Source: Allomyces arbusculus
Lineage: Eukaryota; Blastocladiomycota; Blastocladiomycetes; Blastocladiales; Blastocladiaceae
Assembly: GCA_027604705.1 (NCBI GenBank)
Contig: JADHYV010000063.1
Span: forward strand, 1 to 64,000
Reading direction: 5' to 3'
DNA length: 64,000 bases
This document shows, one piece after another, positions 136-32,965 of the stretch. The notes below the pieces were generated by a model. That model ran no database searches, was not told the DNA's origin, and saw nothing but the letters and a program-made list of their open reading frames with translations. Position 1 is the stretch's first letter, and each line of letters begins with the position of its first letter. Both the position numbers and the translations under genes were made by a program.

Positions 136-3100
136 GACTCAGTTACGAGTGAGTTACTCGCTCGGGCTCAGTAGCCGACTGGCTCAACTGGAACTAGATG
201 ATTAGCCAGATTCGAGTTTAGTCGAGTCCAAGCTCAATCGGTCAGCTCAGTCAGTGGGTCGGTGGACTGAGTCAGATAGGCGTGACATGCAGATCAGCGT
301 GTCAGCACGCGTTGCAAATCATGATTTTTCATGCCCTTCCATGGCCCCATTGATCCCCATTGATCGGCCTTGCAGCAAACGACCTTGCGAGTCGAGACTG
401 CCAGCACTGGTCGCCCGCGCGCCAACTTATACCAAATCGGAACCGATCGACCAGCATCTCACGACGCCCAACCACTCAATACCATGGCAGGCCAGCGCGC
501 GCTGTTTTTCCTACTCGACGGCAACGGCAGCAGCAGCAACGGCCCCTTCCGTCTCGGCGCGCCAGTGCAAACGCACAACAACGTTGCACTCTCGTCCAAC
601 CAGACAAGCAGTAACGCGCTGTTCCCAATGCCGCCCAGCAATCCGCAGGCCATGACCGTGCTCCAAGAACAGTCGCAGTCGTCCACGATCATACCCAACG
701 ACAGCGTCTCAAACGTCAGCACCAGCAATACCACAGCTGCTCCTGGTACCACCGAGTTGACCCCGCCCACCGACGACGACCAGGGCGAGCTCGAAAAGAT
801 ATGAGCAACGTATTATGACGCAGTCTACACGCTCAACAGGACGACGGGGGTGAACAAGATCACGGGGTTCGCGATCTTCCTGCCACCAAGTGCACCAGGT
901 CCAGCGACTCATGCTTCCTTTGCTGCATTCGCGTGTAGATACCGGTACAAGGCCTGCAAGAACACGTATTGCCGCAATAAAAAGACGCGAGACGAAGGTT
1001 ACAGCACGGGCACAAGTGTGCCAGTTCTCAAGGTGCACCTGACCCCCTGCATCGGGCTCAATATCGACATCAAGAACACGCGCAAGAGCAAGCAGCTTCA
1101 ACTCGCGTTCATGGTGGCCGGTGTCAAGCTCTCGTCCAACTCGACGGTCTCGACCGAGTTTATTCGCACCATCCTCGTCTTCCTCGTCCTCACGCTCAAC
1201 ATTGGGTTTCGCGCGTTGAGTAACCCGTTCCTCGTCCTGCTCGCGTCGCTCGTCGTCGGCGACGTGGATCAGGTGGTCGGGTACAAGACGGTCGAGAACT
1301 ACTTCAAGCGCATCCTCGTGCTGGGCTGGAAGTCGCGCATGACCGTGTGGATGTCGAGGGAGGCGCTGTTTGCTCATTTGACGACCGATATCTGGTCGCA
1401 CGGTATGCTCACTTCTCATTTCATTGAACAATTCGCATGATTGGGTTCTAACGCTCCTTGACCGATTTCAGGCACGAACAGCTACATGGGGTTGACCGTA
1501 CTTTTCGTCGACTCCCAGTTCAACTTGCACAATCTCGTCCTCGCGTTCCGGCATGTGCCCAACCACACGGCCGACACGATCAAGTCCGTCTACTTCACAG
1601 TCGTAAACGAGTTCGACCTGGTCAAGAAGGTATGCTGCATGAGCTCTCAAATCCTTTTTTGCCATCTTCACGAGCTGACCACGTTTTTTGGGTTAAATGC
1701 TAGATCTCCTCCACGACAGCTCATAACACCTCGGCCAACACGGCGTTTTTGCGCAGGGCATCCAAGGAGATCGTGCAGCGCACGCACCGCCCTGTCGTTC
1801 CGTCTTTCTCGACGATTGTGTGGCCATTTGGGCTCAGTTGCACCGCCCACATCATTAACCTCGTGGTCAAGGAGGCGCTCGCCGATTTGGAGGCAAGTAT
1901 CGCCAAGGTATGCTGTCTTCTGCTGCTGATGCAACAAGCCTGAAATGCTTATATCTGCTAAACGCAGTTCGTGCACATTGAGTAGATCAAGAAGCTCCTG
2001 TCGCACATCACGGCCTCGCCCATCCGCGTCCACAACAACCATGGCTTCACAAACGCCTATCGTTTGGTGCTCGTGTGGAACGAGGTCAAACGCCGCAGAG
2101 GCATGGACCCGGCTGCCGTCGACACGCTCGAGTTTGAGCCGTTTGGGCTCGAGTACCCGCATGTCCTCATGGTCGATTTGGTCGAGACGGTGGAGGAGGA
2201 GGAGTGGGTCAAGGTCAAGGACAAGAACCCGCCCGCGCTCATGATGGACATTGAAACGCGCTGGAACTCGACGCACGCCATGCTCAAGCGTGCATACGAC
2301 CTGTGGCACACAATCAAGCAGTGGGTGCATTGGAACAGACTCCCTGAATCGATTTGGATCCCGGAACCTGACGACTGGGCGGCCGTCAAGTACATGATGA
2401 GTTTCTCGAGTTTTTGTTGACGGTACGATTTGTCACTTCATGGCTCGCTTCTCTCCATCCGTCCGCTGACATAAATGTATCGACCATAGTGACGAACGTG
2501 CTCTCGACGCAGCGCAGCTCGACCATCACCAAGATGGCGATTGTGATTGACCAGGTTCATGAGCATGTTCAGTATTACAAGAACCTTGCTTCCTCATCAG
2601 TTGCCGACCTCGTCCACATGCCTACGCTTCGGGAAACGACGACCACTATGCTGAAGAAGATTGATCAGTACTGGGCCACGGACAACATGCTGCATTTCAT
2701 GGTCGCGTCAATGCTCGACCCCACCGTCCATCTCTACCATTGGAAGATGACGTGGCAGAATGCGGGGCTCGACCAGACGATCATCGACGAGCGTTGCAGT
2801 TATTCTGCCGAGGCATACGCGTCCGTTTCCAACATGGCGCATCACTTTTCTACAGTTTCTTTGACTTATCTTCTCGCATGTAGACTGATTCGGGTGGTCG
2901 AATTTTTTGCTGCACCTGCAGGCATCGACATTTGGGCCAGCGTCAGCACACTGCGTGTCAAGCCACCTGCAGAAAAACGTCGCCGGGTTGGCGAGCCCAT
3001 CCGCAACGCGCCAGCGGCCATGCCAGCAGGGGGCCAAGGCCCGCGCGCCGAGGTTCTGGCTTATTTGGCCGCAAACGAGGACCACAAGGACCCAGTGGAG

Positions 3101-3692
3101 TATTGGCGCGACAACAAGACGTATCCGTGCATGTGCATCACGGCGCGTGGGCTCTTTGGGATGCAGCCGACTTCCGTGCCGTGCGAGTCGCTCTTTTCGC
3201 GGGCCAAGCTTGCTGCCATGGACATGCGCAACCAGCAAACGCCAGAGACGCTGGAGGGGCGGCTGCTTGGTTCTAACTGGAGCCGGCATGCACTGCCCAT
3301 GATTACTGACGACGTGCTGCAGCAGAGGGTGGAATTGGGCACGGCACAGAAGTTTGCTCTTGCTTTCGATTCTCAAGGTGATGCTGATGTGTTTGTTGCC
3401 GAGTAAGAAGTTAGTTGCAGTGATGTTGAATCAGTGGTTTTTGATTTCTGTAGTTTTCATTCTCCTCTTCAGCTCTTTTGTCTTGCTGTCGCTGTCGTTG
3501 TTTGTGCTCAATTTTGACAATCTATCATCCTTTTGCTGTGCTTTTGCTGCTGTCGCAGGTTCAGTTCGACTGAGTTACTCAGTCGCAGCTCAGTCTGCAC
3601 CCCAACTCGACTGAACTGAAACTCAGAAATTCTTGGAGCCCCAGTCAAGCTGGACGTCAGCTCAGTCAGAACTCCTACGTTGACTGAGTCGA
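136..3692 (+). mobile_element. Decayed hAT-family DNA transposon
   Basis: The element is bounded by matching outer motifs, GACTCAGT at 136 and its inverse ACTGAGTC ending at 3691. The outermost 120-150 bp on each side are crowded with CTCAGT/ACTGAG hexamers in both orientations. hAT elements typically carry such subterminal repeats for transposase binding. Between the ends lies a disrupted hAT transposase reading frame. No convincing 8-bp target-site duplication was found; the left flank is a C homopolymer that would hide one. Exact ends are therefore inferred. GC content and codon use do not obviously differ from the host. Confidence 0.75.
484..3405 (+). pseudogene. hAT transposase, interrupted
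   Basis: From ATG 484 the frame gives a low-complexity N terminus, then a Cys/His-containing segment near 900-1000 that may be a BED-type zinc finger. The RNase H-like core follows: TTDIWSHG joined to TNSYMGLTV across an intron at 1403-1471, then LSCTAHIINLVVKEAL (about 1830) and DIETRWNSTHAMLKRAY (about 2250). The C-terminal hAT dimerisation region (about 3090-3290) contains DPVEYWRDN, PCESLFSRAKL and the RNQQTPETLEGRLLGSNW tract. Other likely introns are 1630-1703, about 1911-1986 and about 2423-2489. The frame is broken by an in-frame TGA at 802-804 and an apparent shift near 2400, so it probably encodes no active transposase. Family assignment is firm; intron positions are read from splice signals. 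Confidence 0.85.
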
Positions 3693-18659: not shown

Positions 18660-19454
18660 TCATCCCACTGCACGTACATAACGCAGTGCAATCTTGACGT
18701 GCACCTCACCCGCCGTGCGGCCGCGATCGTCGTGCAGCTCCACCCACGTGTCCTTGACGCGGCCGGTCATCTTGGCGTCGGCCACCGAGACGCGGCCGCG
18801 GCCCATGAGCTTATCGCCGCGCACGTGGTTGTAATCCCAAACTTCGAGCAAGAGATCATCGACCCCCGACGCGACGTAGAGCTCGGCCGTGTCGTTGAAC
18901 CTCAGGTTCGTGCCAGCATCCTTGTGCACGCGCGTTTTGATCTTGTCGCTGCCGGCCAGCAAAACGCAGTACGGATCGACCTTGCCGATCAGTTCCACGT
19001 TGGGCAGGTTGCGACCCTCGACTACAGGTTTCCCGACGCGTGCACGCGCGTGAGCGACTCGGAGTCGGGCGTGGGGCAGCGGTGCGAACGCGACGGAGAA
19101 GAGTGCGAACACATACGGATATCGACCATGACCGTGCGGGCGGGGGGTACCGGTCGGTCGCTTGACACCATTCCACCGCCGATGCCAGTCGTCGCGGCCG
19201 GGTACGTCGTGCGCATCGGCTGGAACTCGGCTGATGGCTGCGGCGCGGACATGCCAGGCTGGTGCGCGTTCGTCGGCTGCTGGTGCGCGTACGCCGGCTG
19301 CTGATACGCGTTCGCCGGCTGCTGATACCCGTAAGCCGGCTGCTGGTACGCGTAAGCCGGCTGCTGGTACGCGTAAGCCGGCTGCTGGTACGCGTAAGCC
19401 GGCTGCTGGTGCGCGCTCGCCGGCTGCTGGTACGCGCCGGGTCCGAACGTACCG

Positions 19455-19507
<53 letters not shown>

Positions 19508-19816
19508 GAACGCGCCGGGATGCTGCTGCGTCGGGTACCCGCCCATCGACTGGGACCCAGCCGACTGAGGAACGTCGCGACCGATTCCGCTCGCGCCGCC
19601 GTACCCGAACGAGAGCGGCACGTCCGTGCGGCCGCTCGTGCCGCCGTAAATGCCGCCCGTGCCGTACCCCGCGGACGCCTGCTGCGAGTTGCGGCCGAGG
19701 GTAGAGCTCGAAATCGACGACACCGAGCCGCGCGTGGGGCCGCCACCGGCGTGCGTCGCGTACGGGTCCGTGTCTTCGTCGTCGTCGCGGCGGTGGTAAG
19801 GGTAGTAGCCGCTCAT
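18660..19816 (-). CDS. C2-domain protein with Tyr/Gln-rich N terminus
   Basis: Two exons, 19816-19117 and 19021-18660, giving 353 residues. The N terminus (MSGYYPYHRRDDDEDTD) leads into a poly-Gln run of about 15 and tandem AYAYQQP heptads encoded by 21-bp DNA repeats. ARTVMVDI then splices to LEGRNLPNVELIGKVDPYC, which opens a single C2 domain (about residues 232-353). Motifs are KTRVHKDAGTNLRFND, LLLEVWDYNHVRGDKLMG and WVELHDDRGRTAGEVHVK. Aspartates of the calcium loops (VDPYC and VWDYN) are present, so Ca2+/phospholipid binding is plausible. There is no signal peptide or transmembrane segment; probably a peripheral membrane protein. The 95-bp intron has GTATGT and CTGTAG ends. Middle member of a three-gene tandem array. 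Confidence 0.88.
19258..19505. repeat. 21-bp coding minisatellite and CTG run
   Basis: Units of GGCTGCTGGTACGCGTAAGCC repeat at 19275-19430 and encode the AYAYQQP heptads. A CTG/CAG run follows at 19456-19505 and encodes poly-Gln. Both sit in the first exon of the C2 gene and are likely length-variable between isolates. Confidence 0.8.
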
Positions 19817-20399
19817 GGTGCACGCGTAGAGGTTGGTAGGGTGGGATCTGTGCGGAGATAGAGAGCTGCTGGGACGATGTGCGACGGATCAACGAGCAGG
19901 CCTTGCAGCCACGACACGACGCGCGCGCGAGGGCAACGCGACCGTGGGTGCGTGAGAGCGCAGCTGGCGGCGCGCCTTCATGTTTCGGCTGCACACCGGC
20001 CGGCTCTCCAACTGGCCGCGTCGACTCCGCGAGGGGCCAAGGGAGGAACCTCGAGGCGAAAGTGATCATGGCAACGTCGGCGCCGGTTTTGCTGCTGCGT
20101 GGAGTCGTTCTTGTGCTGTGTCGGGTCAAGGCTCCCCGAGCAGCAGGGCGATCAGCAGCCTGCCTCCACGTCAAACAGAATCGCGTGTTGGGCCTGCCCA
20201 TCCTGAACAAGGGCAGCAAATCGAACTTGCAATCCATTATGAAATCTGTACACGACGACAAAACGACCATCTAGCGCGTCGCCCCCACCAACGTCGACGC
20301 CTAGAGGGACGCGATCCAGATGGCCCATCGAGCGGGCAACTGCGCGCGACTTGGCGGCTTACTACAATCCGAAAACAAGCCACAGTGAGCGTCGACACG
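19817..20399. other. Intergenic between C2 paralogues
   Basis: No TATA element is evident upstream of the gene starting at 19816, unlike its two paralogues. No gene is supported here. Confidence 0.4.
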
Positions 20400-21203
20400 T
20401 CAAATCGTCCCACCAACGGGACTCTCCTCGGCAATAACAGAAAGACGTACGGTGCGCGGCGTGAACTTGACGTGCAGCTCGCCAGCCGACTCGCCGTCCT
20501 CGTCGCGCAGCTCGAGCCAGCGGTCCTGGAACTGGCCGGCGCGCAGGTCGCCGAGCGGCATGCGCGTCGTGCCAACGATCGTGTCGCCCGTGATGTTGTA
20601 CTTGTTCGAGTCCCAAATTTCGAGAATGATCTCATCGACGCCGTCGGTCACGGCCACCTCGAGGGTGTCGTTGAAAAACAAGTTGCACCCCTCGTCCTTG
20701 TGCGCGCGCGTGCGCACGATCTGGTCGCCGCACACAACATTGCAATAAGGGTCCATGTCGCCGAGAACCTCGACGTCCTTCAAGTTGCGGCCCTCGACTA
20801 GGTGGAGAGAGTGCGACCGCGTCGTAGGTGAGCGGTGTGTCGTCCAGCGCGTTCCGTGGGCCGGCAGACCACCTCTTCGACTGCCTGCACCCAACCACGA
20901 CGATTGCAACGTACGAATCTCAATGAAGACACCCTGGAGCGGGCCGATCTGGGGCTCGGCGGCGGGCGCGTAGTACGAGTCGTTTTGCGGCGGCGGCGCG
21001 TAGTACTGCTGCTGCGACTCCACCGGGCCGTAACCAGCGTCGTAGCCCGACGGCTGCTGCGGCGGCAAGTAACCGGCGTTCATGGCGGCCTGCTGCTGCT
21101 GAATGCGAATCAGGTCCTGCTCGGCCTGCATCACTTGCTGCAGCTCCTCGTTGTGGCGACGCATGCCGGCCTCGTAGCTGTCCTCTTCGTAGCCGTAGCT
21201 CAT
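20400..21203 (-). CDS. C2-domain protein, shorter paralogue
   Basis: Two exons, 21203-20915 and 20797-20400, giving 228 residues. The N terminus (MSGYGYEEDSYEAG..., actual opening MSYGYEEDSYEAGMRRHNEE) is short, with a Gln-rich helix and Tyr/Pro/Gln sequence. GVFIEI splices in phase 1 to LEGRNLKDVEVLGDMDPYC, starting the C2 domain. Further motifs: RTRAHKDEGCNLFFND, EIILEIWDSNKYNITGD and RWLELRDEDGESAGELHVK. Calcium-loop aspartates are retained. The intron is 117 bp (GTACGT, CCTAG). A TATA element (TATAAAT) at 21281-21287 lies 78 bp upstream. It shares start, intron phase and domain with the two downstream paralogues. Confidence 0.9.
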   Translation of the reverse strand: MSYGYEEDSYEAGMRRHNEELQQVMQAEQDLIRIQQQQAAMNAGYLPPQQPSGYDAGYGPVESQQQYYAPPPQNDSYYAPAAEPQIGPLQGVFIEIRTLQSSWLGAGSRRGGLPAHGTRWTTHRSPTTRSHSLHLVEGRNLKDVEVLGDMDPYCNVVCGDQIVRTRAHKDEGCNLFFNDTLEVAVTDGVDEIILEIWDSNKYNITGDTIVGTTRMPLGDLRAGQFQDRWLELRDEDGESAGELHVKFTPRTVRLSVIAEESPVGGTI

Positions 21204-22052
21204 GGTGGTGGTTGGCGATAGGTGATCTTGGGTCGGGTAGGGGAGAGAGATGCAGCCGGGCTGGTGTGTGGGCCGGCGGTATTTATACGCGGTCCGCGCG
21301 CGGCATGGTGGTGATGGCCGTCATGTCGGGTGGAGATGCGAGCACGCGTGCTGGCGAGACGCGTTCTGGTGCCTGCAGGCTGCAACTGCACGAGAGCTGG
21401 ACCAAGACGCGTGTTGAAGGGGGGCGTGCCAAGAGTTTGGGCTTGGGGCGGCTGGACTGGCTGGGTCGGTGCATCGCGATCCGCGCCGTTCCGACCAAAA
21501 GCAACGTCAGCCGTGCGATTGCATAGTTGCTGTCGGTCGGTCGGTCGCGTCGTTGGGCCGGTGGCGCCGCGAGGCGGCGTGGACGGTTCGGCAAGCGGGG
21601 AGAGAAGAACAGAAGGGGTTGGCCGCCGACAAGGTGCGCAGGCGTGCACAGGCAGACGCACGTGCAAACCAGCGACCAGACTTCCCTGGCATCTTGGCGC
21701 AGCACTGCAGCGGCCCACGTGAGTGGTTTGCGTCCACAAGGGACGCTCAGGCAGCCGACGCTTCATGGCCAGTGCGCTCAAACCTCCCACAGTCTTTGAG
21801 CACGTTGTTGCCGTCGGTTTGGCGGTCATCGCGCTTGGCATCCAACGCTTCGGTTCTCGCCACACACGACCGCAGCCTGCCAGCCGCCTCGGGCTTGCTG
21901 CTTTCATCCACACGCGACGACATACTGCACCAACTTCGACTTCAACGAGCCGGCCACTGGCAGCAACTCGCTGCAAGAGATCAGGTTTCCTGGTGCGCCT
22001 GCCCAACTTGCGGCGCCAGCGCAGTGGGCGGGCTCTGCGCCCGCCGTCCACC
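21204..22052. promoter_or_regulatory. Divergent intergenic region between C2 gene and glycogenin
   Basis: 849 bp between divergent starts. A minus-strand TATA (21281-21287) serves the C2 gene. No clear TATA was seen near the glycogenin start. Confidence 0.45.
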
Positions 22053-25000
22053 ATGCGTTCCAATTCACAATTATCCAACGACGACGATTTGCAAGTTACC
22101 GAGGCCTCACCATGGCCTTCCTCGGCCCATCGTCGCGCCTTTGTTACGGTCTTGACGTCTGACAGTTACGTCGAGGGTGCACTCGTTCTCGCCACGTCCT
22201 TGCGCGCTGTGGGTCCGTGATCAAGTCGGCAGTTTTGGCTTTGACGACAAGCACGACCAGTAAATTGATCAATGGACGCACGCGCTCGTCTTTCCAGACA
22301 CCAAGTTCCCGCTCGTCGTGCTGCACACGAACCACGTTGCCGACGCGTCACACGACCGACTCGTCGCTGCGTTCGACCATGTGCACCACGTCGACCCAAT
22401 TTGCGTCGACGACCCACGCTTGGCGCTCCTGAACGGCCGACCGGAATTGCGCTCGTCTTTTACCAAGCTGCGCGCCTGGACGATGGTCCAATACGACCGC
22501 GTCGTGTTGCTCGACGCCGATACCCTCGTTCTGCGCAATGTCGACGACTTGCTCGACCGCGCACAGCTGTCGGCGGCGCCTGATGCCGGATGGCCAGATA
22601 TGGTTGGTGTCGGTTTGATTTTGGTGAATGAGGGAATGAACTGGACTTGTTGCTTACTGGCTGTGGGATGATCGACATAGTTCAATTCGGGTGTCATGGT
22701 CATTGAGCCCAGCCTGGCCACGTTTCGCGCGCTCCGTGACGAACTGAGCTCACATGGGTCGCTCGACGGCGGCGACCAGGGCCTGCTCAACCAATTTTTC
22801 GGCACGGCATGGCGCGCGAACCCAGCGCAGCACCTGCCCTTCACCGACAATGTCACGCCGAGCCAGAACTACATGTGCATTCCGGCGCTGCGAGCATTTG
22901 GCGAAGCGATCCGCATCGTGCACTTTATCGGCCGCGTGAAGCCGTGGCACTGCCGCGCAGGACCCAATGGGCACATTGTCACGCCCGGACCCGTGTCGGA
23001 GGACCTGCGCTTGCTCGTGCAGCGGTGGTGGACCGTCCGCGCGATTTTGACCGACATGGAGGAACGGCATCAGCAGTGGGCGTGGCGGCAAATGGTTACG
23101 ACGTCGACCACGTCGACCACGACCACCACTTCGTGGTCGTCCAATTCGTCGTGGTCGCGCGGCGACTCGTGGTGGGCGCAGTACCCGCGCCCGTCGAGCG
23201 AGGTCATCCCGTTCTCGTACCTTGACCCGAACGCTTCGCGCCCGCCACGACGGCACCGCAAGCGCAAGGACCCACCGAAACCGAAACCGGTCGTGCGCCC
23301 GCCGCACGCCATGATTTTGCCCATTTCGTCGATGGCCTGGGCGACGGCCGACCCGGCCAGCGGATTGCGCCGACGACGCCGCGGTGCGCTTGAGCCCGTG
23401 ATTGCGCCGGACCTTGTGCCGCGGCCCACGTCGATGGTCGTGGACGACCCGCGCGTGCCGTCGTCCGTCTCGTCTGCCGCGTCCGATTCGACGAGCTCGT
23501 GGTCGAGCGACAGCGAAAGTGACGATGACGGCGACTGGCGCGTCTTGCCGCGGACGCCGCCGCCGTCGCCCGCACTCGATCCGGTCGCCGACGACCACGG
23601 CCAGGACCTGGCGACGCTCGAACAGCGGCTCGTGCGTTACATGCTCATGACGACGATCACGACCACCGTCGAGGCGACGACGACCGAGTCCACCGCGCTC
23701 GTGTCGCGCCAGGACCATTTTTGGCGGCTGCAGTGGGACACGACTTACTTGACGACGACCGAGTGCCGGTGGGGGATCGAGCACTATGGTGTCGACGAGA
23801 CGAGCGGACCTGTGATCCCGGCGCGCGTCGACTCGCTGATCGCGTCGATGCTCGAGCAGCGGCGCAAGCAGGAGCAGCAGCAGGTCGTTGATGCGAGCTC
23901 GCCGACGGCACCCACTTCTCTCAGCTCCGTTGACATGCCGTCGGCACCGCTCAGTTCGTCGACACTCGACGGCTGGGACATTGACCCGTTTTTGCCACAA
24001 ACCCCGCCGCCCACGCCCGCGTCGGTCGCGGCAGACTCGCTGCCACTAGGCAACCAGACGCTCACCCTAGCCGCGGTCGAGCAGAAACTCGTGCACTACG
24101 TGCTCATGACCACGGTCACGACCACGGTCGAGACTACGACCACCATGTCCTCGACCTACATTGCGCAGGACGAGCATTTTTGGCGGCTCAAGTGGGACAC
24201 TGGGTACCTGACGACGCCGACCGCGGTGTGGGGCCTCGAGCATTACGGCGCGGACGAGGCCAGTGGCCCTGTGATTCCCCAACGCGTCGACTCGCTGATC
24301 GCATCCATGCTCGAGCAGCAACGCAAGCAACAGGCGCTGCAGAGACCGACCAGCGAGCACCCATCCCCCGATGAACATTTCGGTCGTGTGAAATGGGACG
24401 GCGCGTACCTGACGACGGACGCGGCCAAGTGGGGGCTCGAGCACTATGGTGTCGACGAGACAAGTGGACCCGTGATCCCGGAACGCGTCGACTCGCTGAT
24501 CGCGTCGCTGCTCGAGCAAAAGCGCAAGCAGCAGGCGCATGCGGCCCCTGCCACGACCGCTCCGCCGTCGACTGCGCCGTCTGGTTTGTCCAGCTCGCAC
24601 GAACCCGCGGAGTTGGACCCGCCCAGTTCGTCGGTTGCCGACTGGGGCGAGAGCGACGATTCGCTCCCACCACCGCCACCACCGTCGCCGGCCTCAACCA
24701 CCGCCGAACCGCCACTCGTAGACCACGCGCTCAACCAGGACGCGCTCGAGGGAAAGCTCGTGCACTACGTTCTTGTGACAAAGGTCACGACCACGGCTGA
24801 GACGACGACCACCACGTCCACCAACGTCATTGCTCAAGACGAGCACTTTTGGCGGCTAAAGTGGGATGCCGGGTACCTGACAACGCCGACCGCCGCTTGG
24901 GGTCTCGAGCATTACGGCATCGACAAGGGCAGCGGCCCCGTCATTCCGGAGCGCGTCGATTCGCTGATCGCGTCCATGCTCGAGCAGCAACGCAAGCAGC

Positions 25001-28000
25001 AGACGCAGCAGAAACCGTCCGATGCGCACCCGTCGCCCGACGAGCATTTTGGGCGCATCAAGTGGGACGACGAGTACCTGACGACGGAAACGGCCAAGTG
25101 GGGGCTTGAGCACTATGGTGTCGACGAGACGAGTGGGCCCGTGATCCCGCAGCGTGTTGAGTCGCTGATTGCCTCGATGCTTGAGCAAAAGCGCAAGCTG
25201 CAGGCGGTTGTCACGTCCGAACCATTATCGCCGCCAACTGCACCGTCCGTTCCGATTGATACGTTGCCATTGCGACCGCCAAACCCGCCGGTTGCTGGAT
25301 CTGATGCGGTTCATGACACACTTGCACCACCGACTGGACCGTCCACACCACTCGGCTCGTCCGACCTCGCGCTGCTGGCGTTGTCGAGCTCGTCGATTTC
25401 GGCATTGGACGATGGCCCCGATTTTCCGCCACCACCGCCGCCGTCACCGGTCTCAATTCTTGACCAGCCGCTGCACATGCTCAACTCGGACGCACTCGAG
25501 GAAAAACTCGCACACTACGTGCTCATGACCAAGGTCACGACCACGGCTGAGACGACGACCACCACGTCCACCAACGTCATTGCTCAAGACGAGCACTTTT
25601 GGCGGCTAAAGTGGGATGCCGGATACCTGACAACGCCGACCGCCGCTTGGGGTCTCGAGCATTACGGCACCGACGCGAACAGTGGTCCCGTCCTTCCTGA
25701 GCGTGTCGACTCGCTGATCGCGTCCATGCTCGAGCAACAGCACAAGAAGGCGTCGCAGAAACCGGCCGAGCAAGTCGCGACAGTCATATCGCCCGAGGAG
25801 CATTTTGGCCGCGTCAAGTGGGACGACCAGTATCTGGCAACGAACGCGGCCAAGTGGGGGATTGAGATGTATGGCGTCGACGAAGCGAGTGGACCGGTGA
25901 TCTCGGAGCGCGTCGAATCGTTGATCGCGTCGATGCTCGAGCAGAGGCGCAAGCAGGAGGAGCTCGACGCCGCCGCGGCCGCATTAGCGCCGACTAATCA
26001 TGGCGTTGCGCCATCGCGACCTGCTGCTGACTCGGAAACCGGTCTGGGCAAACCTCTTCTTGCATCATCGCTCGACAGCGCGCCTGCGGCAGGGTTGACG
26101 CCGGTGGACCACGACGCCATAACACCACTCGTTGCCGACTCGGAAATCGATCTCGGGAAGCCGCTTATTGTGCCGGCGCTCGAAGACACGCTCGCGTCAA
26201 AATTGGGGCCGGCGGACCACAATATCGCGCCACTCCCGCTTGCTGCCGGCTCGGACGCCGATCTGGATAAACCTTTTCCTGCTCCGTCACTCGATGACGC
26301 TCTTGCGAATCACTTGCCGGTACCATCGCCGCCGCTCATCCCTGATCGCGACTCGTCGCTCGTTGCCTCGGCCATGATGGACCGCAAGGATTCGCGGCTG
26401 AGCGAGAGCGATCTGGGCGCCGGTGCTGCGCTTGCACTGCGTCCCGCAGGACCGGAAGACTCATCGTCACCGCGCCCGTCGTCGTGGAACGTGTCGAGCC
26501 ACGCGTCCACCACCTCGACTGATCTCGTCGAGCAAAACCCGTTCCACCTCGCACCCGCATCGCATTACAGCTGGCCGGCGGGCGAGTTCGACGACGCGCT
26601 GTTTGATCGGTTCAGTGCCGCGTCGCAGCTCGTTCCGTCCATCCCAGAAACCAACGAGCCCGACGTTCAGCGCCCACCATTGCTTTTGCGGCCGCGACTT
26701 GACAAACCCGGTGCACCGCCACTTAATCTCGACGCGCCCGCAACCTCAGTCCTCTGGCCAGACGATGAAACCGTGCCGCTGCCCATGAAACCGTCGGCTT
26801 CGTCCAATTTTGCCGAGCTCGACCACGACGAGTCGACCAAGCACGCCGTTCTCGCGTGGCTTTTGAAAACGCACCAAGCCGGCAGCGGCAGTAGCAGTTC
26901 CGCACCAACGGCACGGCTGAAACCCGGCGCAGTGTCGGAACCTGTCCTGTCGACGGGCTCGTCGCCGGCATCGTCCGTGGGAGATGCTGCTGAGTGGGAG
27001 GATGTGGATGACGACGACGCGCCGCTACCGCTCCGCACGTCGTACGGGTCGCTGCCGCGGCCACGGCCTGCGTCTAGGATTCGGTTTGACGGATTACCTG
27101 GGAACCTGGTCGATAAGGAGGACTTGGGGCCGGTCGCGATTTCGATTCCGGAGCCGAGCGAGCCGAACATGGCAAGCGTGCAGCAGGAAAGCGACGATGC
27201 GGTCATTGTGCACGTCGCCGAATCGGTCGCGTCCAATGACTATTCTGAAGTGGCACCATCGCTGCCTGATCTCGTGGTGCCGATAGAACCTGAGACGACC
27301 GGCGTGCCGCTGGCACTCCATGCGCCCGCGTCGCAGCCCACTCGCTACCAGATCGTCACGACCACGACGACCACTGCAGTCACGACCACGTCCACGACTG
27401 CGACCACCTCGGCCCTCACTCAGGCCGAAACAGCGACGCACAAACTCGTCGAAACGACTGAGCCGCGCCCATCGGTCCTTGCTGTGCCGCCGGTCCACGA
27501 CCTGGCCGCGGTTTCGGGGAGCGGCGGAACTCGGCCGAGCATGATCTACGACACTGTCGAGGAGCTCTCTGACGGTATTCCGTCGCCTACTATGTCAAAC
27601 AGCACGGACAACGATGGCTCGGTTTTCTCGGACGTTTTGGACTTGTACGGCACGGTTCCGCGCCCCACATCGCCCGAGGTCAAGGAACCATTGCCCGCGG
27701 TCGATTTGTCGCTTCAGTCGCCGTCCGAACCGGTTGCTCAAGTGAGCCAAGAACCGGCGCATCCGGAGTTGGCCGAATCGCGCGCGAACCGCATCAAGTC
27801 GGTCGCGCTCGCGATTCGGCTTTTGCAGCGAAAACGGGCGGATATGGCTGGGAAAGCAGCCGGGCAAGGTGTGCTGCAGGCTGGCAAAACCGAGGTCGCG
27901 CAAGATACGGTTGCAGCAGTTGATCCGGCGACCACGCTCACACCGTCGACTGTGGCCATGACTGGTCCTGATTCTGCGCCAGTCGTCGAAACTACGTCGC

Positions 28001-29910
28001 CACCAAGCGACGATCTTGAGCCGGCAGTGTCTGCTGGGTCTCTATCACATTTTGGAGGCGTCGTCTACCCAGACCACGGCGCGTCTCCCACGCTCGATGT
28101 CGTCGCATCACCGCACGAGCACGAGCCATCTGCATCGCTGCAGTACGAGCCGCATGCTGCCGCGCCAACGGCGCGGATCAAGTCGGTCATGGCCGCGATG
28201 CGGCTTCTGCAGCGGAAGCGCGCTCAGCTCGACCCGTCAGCGGACTCGGCCGGTGTCAGCACGACGCTGGATCAACCGAGCAAGGAGACGTCTCGCCCAG
28301 CGCTAACGTCGCGCACCGACCCCGAGAATGAACCCGATTCGTTTGCGCCCACGGGCCTCGATGCCGCGCAGCTGCCACCAACCCGTCTCTTTGACACGAT
28401 GGATTCGCTACGCGTCGACGACGCTGGTCACGCTGCAAGCAACGAATATGCCTCGATCTTCCAGCCAGCCTCCCCCACGCCGCTCTCGGACGCGGTCAGT
28501 CTGCCCGTCGCACCACCGAGCAAGGACCAGAGCTTTGCGACGCTCGACTCGAACTCCGATGGCCTGCTGCCACCACCACCTCGACGCGGCCAGAGTCGGC
28601 TCAAGTCCTCGGCACTCGCAGCACTTGCTGCGACTCGTGTTACGTCCCCGTCTGCCGAGTCATTTGCTGACACGGCCAGTTCCTCGGCAGCAGACACGGC
28701 GCCGGCAACAGCGACGACTTCGCTCGTGCGTCTCCCCGATCCACTCGACGGCGTGCAGGCAGATCATGGTGCTGAGCATGACTCGAAAACGGGACGCACC
28801 GACGTTGGTCCGGCGATGTCCGCACCCGCACTGACCATGGACGAAAGTCTTCCGCCGCCACCGCGACGCGGCCAGAGCCGATTCAAGAGCGCTGCATTGG
28901 CTACGGCAATTGGCGCGTCGCACACGCCGCGCCGCCACTCGTCATTGTCGCCATCAATCGACGCGACGAATATTGCAGCCAGTGCCAATGTCGACCCGAT
29001 GGCGCTGGGCCCCGTTCCACCATTGTCGCCGTCGGGCGGCACAACTACGTCGGTGCCTCACCTTTCGGGGCAGCCCACCACCGACGCGGCGCCACCCGCT
29101 CCCACTGCTGATCAGCTCCCACCACCGCCGCCACGCAGACAACGGAGCTCGCTCAAGACTGCTGGTCTGGCTGTCATGGGAGCCAGGATGTCCTCGTCGT
29201 CGGCCTCGAGCAATCAAGAACCGATCGGCGTGGTTCAGCCCGATCCGACTTCCAAACCCGATCACAGTCTTCCTTCCGCTGCTCTGCCACCGCCACCGCG
29301 ACGTCATCCGACTGCAACATTCCAGTCGTCGGGCCCAACAGACGCCCTTGAACTCGTTGAGGTGCGTCCACCACCAGGGCGACCTGCACTACCCGGGGTC
29401 ACGGCGCCGAAACCCGCTCTTGACAGTCCACCGCCAAGGAGGCACACGCGGCCGCCGCGGCCGTCTCGTCCACTCTCGGAGCTCACGACGCCACCTACTT
29501 CGTCGCCGTCGGGCCCCTCCAAGCCTGATCCAACCGCGACCACGGCCACGACGGCGCCCGCCGTCATTGTGCCCAGCCGACCTGTATCGCCGTCGACCTC
29601 GCTGTCGCGCTTATCCGTGACGGAAAAGATGACCGTATCGTCCGGCAAAGTCACGACTCCCGTGCGCCGCCCAACTGCGCCGTCGGCGCCGACCGAAACA
29701 GATGAGCCAGAGGCCGCGGCTGCGACACCCCCGGCACCGCCGCTTGTGACGCGGCTCCCGAGTTCAGGACCGTTTGTGTCGGTGCAGCGGCTTTGGCAGG
29801 ATGGAACCCGGTGGCGTGGTGTCGTTGCCATCGTCCTTATTGCTGGGACGGCCATTGCAGTGCTCGGCCTCTTGGTTGGGCTCCCGTTCTTGCTTGTTTT
29901 TGCTGCGTGA
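22053..29910 (+). CDS. Giant glycogenin with seven C-terminal repeats and membrane tail
   Basis: Three exons: 22053-22212, 22298-22602 and 22681-29910, about 2,564 residues. Glycogenin primes glycogen by self-glucosylation from UDP-glucose. The GT8 domain (about 25-300) shows AFVTVLTSDSYVEGALVLA, the DxD motif LLDADTL, FNSGVMVIEPS, GGDQGLLNQFF and VHFIGRVKPW. NYMCIPALRAFG places Tyr219 at the site of the human acceptor Tyr195. Residues about 500-1250 hold seven copies of a roughly 55-residue repeat. A Pro/Ser-rich region of about 1,300 residues with short basic motifs follows, then a C-terminal hydrophobic segment (VVAIVLIAGTAIAVLGLLVG) ending three to twelve residues before the stop. Ordinary glycogenins have about 300-650 residues and no membrane segment. 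Exon 3 is continuously open for 7.2 kb, so it is not an assembly join of decayed frames. Intron 1's donor (GTCCGT) was chosen to keep frame. Confidence 0.9.
23710..25959 (+). repeat. Seven coding repeats in glycogenin
   Basis: Copies start near 23710, 24169, 24370, 24838, 25036, 25588 and 25795. The core is HFWRLKWD or HFGRVKWD, then YLTT, then WGLEHYG.DE.SGPVIPER and VDSLIASMLEQ. Copies 2+3, 4+5 and 6+7 form pairs of an FWRL type followed by an FGRV type; copy 1 is single. Each FWRL copy is preceded by a segment with HYVLMT and Thr-rich TTT runs. The arrangement implies duplication of a two-copy unit. Confidence 0.92.
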
Positions 29911-31197: not shown

Positions 31198-32965
31198 ATG
31201 ACAATGCCCAAGATTTCGGCCCTCGCGCTCGTGGCTCTGGCCACGATGCTGTTTGGCACTGTTGATCCGGTCGCCGCGGCTCCGAAGCCAGTTCGCTCTG
31301 GCACGGGTCGCCTCGCGCAGTTTGATATGTCGCCAGTTTCGTCGCTGGCCAAGCGTGCCGTCGGCGAAGGGACTTACTACGAGTACGATTTGCTTTTTGC
31401 CCCTTCTTGGCCGCAGGAAATGCGATCAAGAGCGTTGTCAACGTTATCCCTGTTGCCAAAGCTGACGGTCTCTGCTTCTCCCCTCTTGCCAACGGCGTCA
31501 CATAGTGTTGGTGCTGGTGCGTCCGTCACTTTCTTGAACCAAATCAGCCAGAACCAGCGACCAGTTCGCGGGAATCCGTCTGCATGTGCACCGGTTCGCG
31601 GGAAGCGTGGCCGCGACCATGCACATTGATGGCGTACACACAACGAAGGAAACCGCTTGCCCGAAACGGTGTTACAGTTCGGCTTGGTCTTGACTGCTTT
31701 CCGTCCTGTAGCGGTTTCTGGAAGACTTCGCGCAACAACACGCGTCCCCACAAACCGTGATGAGCGAACTGATCACTCACCCTTTGCTGCTCGTTCCCCG
31801 ACTTTCATTTCCAGGCTTTGGCGCTTGTGGTGAAATGCACTATGACGGCGAGTATGTGGTCGCGCTCAACGACAAGGACTGGTACGGATCGCCGTGCTTT
31901 TCGTGCGTCGCCATCACGGCCAATGGTCGCGGTCCCATCAAGGCCAAGATCGTCGACAAGTGCCCAGGTTGCAAGAGCGGCGACCTCGACCTGTCACCCG
32001 CAGTCTTCCAGGCTTTCTATCCACTGGGTGTCGGCCGCTTCACGCTGCAGTGGACGTACACGTCGTGCGGCGCTGATCCCGCGCCAGTCCCGGTCCCGGT
32101 CCCCGTTCCGACGTCGATCTACACGCCCCCGCCGGTTCCGACGTCGATCTACACGCCGCTGCCGACTTCGGTCTACACACCCCCGCCGTCGACCACGCCC
32201 ACCAGCTCGCCTGAGCCTGTTCAAACCGCGACGAGCACGCCGATTGCCGCCCCGACTTCGATTTCGACCACCGATGCGCCTGTTTCGACCATCACGTCGT
32301 CCATTGTCGTGCAGCCGACGATCATGCCCTCGCCGACCACCGAGCAGCAGAGCTCCATTGTTATTTCGGCCACTCAGTCCGCGTCGCAGCAAATTTCGTA
32401 CTCGTACTCGTCGGGCGTGTCGTCTTCCACGGTCACGACCACGCAGCAAACGACGGCGACGACGTCACCGGTTCTCACACAAAATGACGTGCCGTCGACG
32501 ACCTCGTCGATTGCGACCGCAACCACGGTTTCAACTTCGGTGGCTGCGCCTGAGGCGACCGCGACAAGCCAGACGATCGTATCGACTTCTACGACAACCC
32601 AATTTACGTCAGCCACTTCGCAGCCAGCTTACTCGGCTCCCGCGGCCACGACCACCACCACCACCACCACCACCACCTCGTCGACTGTGCCCGCTGCGAC
32701 CGAGACTGCTTCGACCGTGACGAGCACTTCGACCGTGACGAGCACTAGCACGGCCACCACGACCACGACGGCGCCTGCTTCGGCTGTGGGCGTTGCGACG
32801 CACGTCGGGTACGACCCCAAGACGGCGACCAACCCCTACCTCGATTTCCTCGCGTCTCCGGCGTACTCGGCCGGCCTGTCGCTCGAGGCTCGCATTCTCG
32901 TCGAGCAAATGGCCGCCGCGTGGGAAATCCAGCGCCAGCGTGACCTTGGGCTGCGCCTCGACTAA
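31198..32965 (+). CDS. Secreted double-psi beta-barrel (RlpA/expansin-like) protein 1
   Basis: Three exons: 31198-31382, 31506-31516 (11 nt) and 31815-32965, giving 448 residues. A signal peptide (ISALALVALATMLFGTV...VAAAP) is followed by a short pro-segment ending LAKR, a Kex2-like dibasic site. Splicing then gives GTYYDVGAGFGACGEMHYDG, the start of a DPBB domain of about 100 residues. It continues WYGSPCFSCVAITANG and VDKCPGCKSGDLDLS and ends near QWTYTSCG. Such domains bind or loosen wall polysaccharide. A Ser/Thr/Pro-rich, probably O-glycosylated linker of about 230 residues follows. The protein ends in a conserved helical tail (YDPKTATNPYLDFLASPAYS, then EQMAAAWEIQRQRDLG). Without the microexon the frame does not join. 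Substrate is unknown. Confidence 0.87.
31506..31516 (+). other. 11-nt microexon of DPBB gene 1
   Basis: TGTTGGTGCTG flanked by ATAG and GTGCGT. It supplies 11 nt (2 modulo 3), which is exactly what is needed to join GTYYD to GFGACG as GTYYDVGAGFGACG. The same microexon occurs in the second gene. Confidence 0.85.

Follow-up and report, generated by a model that had tools for sequence, protein, structure and literature searches.

A giant glycogenin of Allomyces arbusculus with seven mid-chain repeats and a predicted C-terminal membrane anchor

In this study, we describe a gene for a greatly enlarged glycogenin in Allomyces arbusculus, which occupies positions 22053-29910 of the first 64,000 nucleotides of contig JADHYV010000063.1 (assembly GCA_027604705.1). 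This whole 64,000-nucleotide stretch is referred to as the window, and all features of the gene given below lie on its forward (+) strand. A protein of 2,564 residues is encoded, with no internal stop codon, by three exons at 22053-22212, 22298-22602, and 22681-29910. Exon 1 opens with the ATG at 22053, in the context CCACCATGC, and carries an N-terminal extension and the beginning of a GT8 domain; exon 2 holds the first half of this domain; and exon 3 (7.2 kilobases, kb) holds its second half, an array of seven repeats, a long tail rich in proline, serine, threonine, and alanine, a C-terminal hydrophobic segment, and the stop codon (29908-29910). The two introns, at 22213-22297 (85 nucleotides) and 22603-22680 (78 nucleotides), are both of the GT-AG type, and removal of intron 1 yields an ungapped alignment with human glycogenin-1 (GYG1) over the exon junction. 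An earlier interpretation made from the letters and their open reading frames (the sequence-only reading) had proposed GT8 exons joined to a 7.2-kb exon, a product of about 2,564 residues, and a glycogenin enlarged by repeats; the gene model was reproduced exactly, and the enlargement was confirmed, the second half of the GT8 domain sharing one frame with the repeats.

The GT8 glycogenin domain comprises residues 27-246. It matches Pfam PF01501 at 66.7 bits (cutoff 24.3) and, among PDB sequences, it matches glycogenin-1 chains with a best expectation value (E) of 7.5e-64 over residues 24-255. The chain row used for comparison is one that we take to be human GYG1; for 7zbn this assignment is also made in the excerpted text of PMC9188544. 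Identity to this row is 48% over 220 columns, and K84, D100/D102, N131, D161/Q162, H210, and K216 are identical to it in the aligned segment. The alignment places the DxD motif at residues 126-128 (DAD, 22513-22521), and the second half of the domain, with FNSGV, GGDQG, the acceptor tyrosine, and HFIGRVKPW, at 22681-22953. Tyr219 (22870-22872) aligns without gaps to Tyr195 of human GYG1, the residue that is autoglucosylated according to the same excerpted source (PMC9188544), and it is most likely that Tyr219 would be self-glucosylated as well. Judged by its sequence, this is a glycogenin whose catalytic residues are all in place, as had been claimed beforehand for the DxD motif and for an acceptor at Tyr219. 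With animal glycogenin-1 (human GYG1; PDB 7zbn, 7q0b, 8cvx) it has in common the DxD motif, the acceptor tyrosine, NSG, GGDQG, and HFxGRVKPW, followed by a variable linker and then an element that is helical in the animal chains and predicted to be so here. However, the animal chains are 333-352 residues long and bear a single synthase-binding motif, GN34, at their very end, whereas the much longer Allomyces protein has seven repeats in mid-chain and a hydrophobic segment at its C-terminus. Its cysteines are at residues 89, 221, 246, and 517.

The seven repeats, about 55-62 residues each, lie within 23698-25968. Their alignment (n = 7) has 62 columns, 29 of them invariant, and five aromatic residues (F8, W13, Y17, W25, and Y30) are present in every copy. 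Each repeat scores 123-132 bits against their own profile, and when this profile was run over 1,294 six-frame fragments of the window of at least 25 residues, the exon-3 frame was the only one found at E<=1. Two partial matches to the profile in the tail, at residues 1371-1391 (4.3 bits) and 1986-2004 (-1.3 bits), were excluded from the repeat count. The copies fall into a W-type with HFWR (copies 1, 2, 4, and 6) and a G-type with HFGR (copies 3, 5, and 7). To the earlier account we add that they are arranged as four larger modules (1+2+2+2), each consisting of a threonine-rich head followed by one repeat (module A) or by a pair of W-type and G-type repeats (modules B, C, and D). Module A has its head at 23617-23697 and repeat 1 at 23698-23883; module B has its head at 24076-24156, repeat 2 at 24157-24342, and repeat 3 at 24358-24543; module C has its head at 24745-24825, repeat 4 at 24826-25011, and repeat 5 at 25027-25212; and module D has its head at 25495-25575, repeat 6 at 25576-25761, and repeat 7 at 25783-25968.

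Nucleotide identity between the repeats is 67-91%, with a synonymous divergence (dS) of 0.23-2.22. The ratio of non-synonymous to synonymous divergence (dN/dS) is 0.09-0.49 in all 21 repeat pairs (57 codons), which indicates that purifying selection maintains the repeats as units of protein; the seven repeats of some 55 residues first seen in the sequence-only reading are confirmed. The module heads are under weaker constraint than the repeats, their synonymous and non-synonymous codon differences over 27 codons being 5 and 8 (B-C), 1 and 8 (B-D), 4 and 3 (C-D), and 4 and 9 (A-B), respectively.

About 1,300 residues follow the repeats, and proline, serine, threonine, and alanine together account for 44% of everything beyond residue 310. 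Right after the seventh repeat, at 26029-26277, there is a degenerate repeat in three copies (DSE..LGKPL). A basic motif with the pattern RIKSV..A.RLLQRKRA occurs twice, as RIKSVALAIRLLQRKRA at 27790-27840 and again at 28174-28224, the two copies differing by six synonymous and three non-synonymous codons among 17. Further on, a proline/arginine motif is present as LPPPPRRGQSRLKS (28567-28608) and LPPPPRRGQSRFKS (28849-28890), with nine synonymous and two non-synonymous differences in 18 codons; a divergent third copy, LPPPPPRRQRSSLKT, is at 29116-29160, and the start of a fourth, shorter one (LPPPPRRHP) is at 29284-29310. It is possible that this motif, LPPPPRRGQSR(L/F)KS, is a proline-rich binding site or a phosphorylation site.

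The last 30 residues of the protein (2535-2564; 29818-29907), directly adjoining the stop codon, are its only strongly hydrophobic stretch and contain no charged residue; this segment was absent from the earlier account. The best 19-residue hydropathy, 2.92, is at residue 2536, the next separate window reaches 1.39, and 10 residues lie beyond the peak; none of 1,000 shuffles of the tail gave a peak as high. By inspection, the N-terminus looks hydrophilic. Tail-anchored membrane proteins are built in this way, with one hydrophobic segment at their very C-terminus, which suggests that the segment may be a membrane anchor here as well. Mammalian STBD1 is a glycogen-binding protein that acts as a tether between glycogen and membranes, and the Allomyces protein would likewise connect glycogen to a membrane. 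However, STBD1 is not a glycogenin, whereas here the predicted anchor is fused to the C-terminus of the priming enzyme.

It might be argued that this gene is an artefact of annotation, with the GT8 and the repeat/tail parts belonging to different proteins, or with in-frame introns that escaped notice removing much of the tail. In favor of this view, the GC content at third codon positions falls along exon 3 from about 0.8 to about 0.6-0.7, and the model was drawn from sequence alone. However, one open frame of 2,409 codons carries the seven repeats together with the GT8 second half, FNSGV through GRVKPW; the chance expectation for such a frame from single-base composition is about 3e-27, so that two separate genes, the case named in the sequence-only reading as one that would refute it, are unlikely. 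Moreover, the two tail motif pairs, which extend out to 28.9 kb, differ mainly by synonymous codons, and the frame closes with a clean hydrophobic segment adjoining the stop. We consider an artefact of this kind very improbable.

With the seven-row alignment as input, AlphaFold predicts for a single repeat helices at residues 4-8, 21-30 (with the W and Y), and 41-61 (with RVDSLI), and a loop at 31-40 (with G.D). The mean predicted local distance difference test score (pLDDT) of this model is 69.5, with block means of 65-81 in the helix-loop-helix part, and its predicted template modelling score is 0.53. The fold of the repeat is predicted, with moderate confidence, to be helix-loop-helix. Against this, the other four of the five models have mean pLDDT values of 53-59, and the model of a two-repeat module (mean pLDDT 37) was unusable and says nothing on packing. 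No domain that matches the repeats clearly better, the other outcome named in the sequence-only reading as one that would refute it, was found in Pfam, NCBIfam, PDB sequences, or by Foldseek against the PDB, where the single-repeat model gave two matches with a meaningless best E of 7.1. Three candidates were discarded: an NCBIfam match of the exon-3 frame due to chance (17.7 bits, cutoff 218), a Pfam YebO match below cutoff (11.1, cutoff 27), and PDB 2z1m, which matched the repeat profile at E 0.26 (8.7 bits for its best domain) and was also attributed to chance.

The sequence-only reading had likened the second half of the repeats to GN34, the motif by which animal glycogenins bind glycogen synthase, and had taken fungi to have this motif as well. 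GN34 docks on helices alpha4, alpha9, and alpha10 of the synthase. Four GN34 rows were taken from PDB chains, namely glycogenin-1 (human and rabbit), glycogenin-2, and the worm peptide 4qlb. The repeats and GN34 (the 4qlb peptide and the C-termini of GYG1 and GYG2) have a common order of landmarks, W..Y.G.D..I...(L/V)D..(L/I), and in the solved complexes GN34 is a helix-turn-helix according to excerpts of PMC9188544 and PMC9287172; the helix-loop-helix predicted for the repeats is akin to it. A pattern of these landmarks fits six of the seven repeats and none of 20,000 shuffles (at least four of seven repeats being required), and a looser one fits all seven repeats and 13 of 20,000 shuffles, though in both cases the gap ranges were fitted after the repeat had been viewed. 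When the profiles were aligned with conservation weighting and cheap gaps, the alignment spanned nearly all of GN34, 92 and 46 of 4,000 column shuffles did as well, and the reversed repeat scored lower whichever of three gap costs was used. A preliminary run of this alignment with 200 shuffles had given 0.15 and three times 0.015.

Several results weigh against this likeness. The repeat profile finds none of the GN34-bearing PDB chains at E<=10, among the 10 distinct such sequences present; the four GN34 rows score only 0.3 to -1.4 bits with it; and a search of the full-length protein with a GN34 profile recovers none of the repeats, its best score being -5.6 bits at residues 282-288. A query made of the GT8 domain and repeat 1 aligns in GT8 only, among the 19 chains listed (with alignments of five). 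The profile-profile comparison proposed together with the likeness, run with HHalign, gave a score that 126 of 300 column shuffles reached, with an alignment reduced to a single column, and local alignment with BLOSUM62 gave P 0.14-0.29 over three gap costs. Even in the conservation-weighted alignment, 483 of 4,000 column shuffles are as good under stricter gaps, as are 107 and 72 of 1,500 block shuffles, so that P is about 0.01-0.12 with column shuffles and 0.05-0.07 with block shuffles; if the tryptophan column is ignored, 375, 218, and 155 of 2,000 are as good. Furthermore, the best gapped alignment pairs the GN34 tryptophan with Trp 13 of the repeat, and with Trp 25, the one matched in the sequence-only reading, only under strict gaps; the strict animal spacing fits none of the seven repeats; and the predicted loop of ten residues exceeds the GN34 turn. 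In sum, the repeats are set apart from GN34 by the lack of significant similarity in HMMER, HHalign, or BLOSUM62 comparisons, by the gaps needed to align them, by their longer predicted loop, and by their seven copies. The earlier likeness is suggestive in the gap-tolerant weighted alignment and agrees with the kind of fold predicted, and it is not significant in standard comparisons. A relation to GN34, distant or convergent, is possible and is not established.

Glycogenins recruit glycogen synthase. Because the protein is a glycogenin, and because the repeats are the best-conserved units of its tail and resemble short helical docking elements, our leading reading is that they are docking modules for the synthase, to which we give a probability of roughly 0.4. 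The hydrophobic segment sits where animal chains have their GN34, at the extreme C-terminus, and as no other site is found with the GN34 profile, the repeats are the best-conserved candidates in the tail. Of the multivalent platform put forward before, the glycogenin and the real and selected repeats remain, and the identity with GN34 is weakly supported. It is less likely, though conceivable, that the repeats dock something else, such as the alpha-glucan itself, a branching enzyme, or a regulator, in which case multivalency would keep a glycogen particle close to the membrane as it grows. The five invariant aromatic residues and the weak GN34 statistics are consistent with such a partner; however, no carbohydrate-binding or other domain was detected in Pfam, NCBIfam, or PDB sequences, and starch-binding modules are typically beta-sandwiches, whereas the fold predicted here is helical. 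It appears still less probable that the repeats mainly self-associate or serve as a spacer kept by selection, the tail then clustering glycogenin on a membrane without binding the synthase. The long last helix in the prediction (residues 41-61), the high content of proline, serine, threonine, and alanine, and the head-to-tail repeat pairs in three of the four modules would suit this alternative. However, 29 invariant columns of 62 and a dN/dS near 0.1 in many pairs are not expected of a mere spacer, and the two-repeat model, uninformative as it was, gave no confident packing for self-association.

If the repeats do dock glycogen synthase, the seven predicted helix-loop-helix modules in the long tail would act as repeated binding sites. 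Glycogen would then be started from a multivalent platform held at a membrane, on which several synthases, or more than one protomer of the same tetramer, might be bound at once. In the solved human complex, as excerpted from PMC9188544, each glycogenin contacts the synthase by a single short C-terminal peptide; the synthase tetramer can hold four GN34 peptides, and the complex is 4:4. Because a tetramer offers four sites, the seven sites of one chain could saturate one tetramer or link several. That one polypeptide primes glycogen, is anchored in a membrane by its tail, and docks synthase at seven modules is conceivable but less likely than not.

Relatives were sought in two collections, viral_contigs and genome_contigs, with no fungal genome collection among them. 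The repeat alignment gave 12 and 21 pattern stretches, respectively, the GT8 domain 16 in viral_contigs, and the GT8 domain aligned with the human sequence 106 and 595, respectively, and none of these was confirmed. Likewise, no giant, repeat-bearing, or tail-anchored glycogenin was found in open-licence literature, among the matches listed.

With regard to its surroundings, the window has 58 listed open reading frames of at least 250 residues, and 20 of them besides the glycogenin were scanned against Pfam. The matches include CTK3/CID, ALIX/BRO1, ubiquitin hydrolase, C2 proteins, a prenyltransferase, a hAT transposase, and a GATase and His_biosynth protein, presumably HIS7-like; no further glycogen gene was found by Pfam among these 20. 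This content fits a fungus, and the glycogenin gene is probably of fungal origin. Two neighboring C2-domain frames at 18660-21320 (-) are possibly a tandem duplicate pair, the hAT transposase-like frame is at 2372-3406 (+), and a frame at 31712-32965 (+) matches the double-psi beta-barrel weakly, below cutoff, and has long stretches rich in threonine, serine, and proline after the matched part.

Linker length is reported to govern glycogen particle size in vitro (excerpted text of PMC9188544). If our reading is true, this protein would offer a natural test of how the number, spacing, and location of docking sites determine how many glycogen particles form and how large they are. As a scaffold built into the membrane, a single primer could fill one whole glycogen-synthase tetramer or more than one. 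Such a protein would also prompt one to ask whether glycogen is made at membranes in A. arbusculus.

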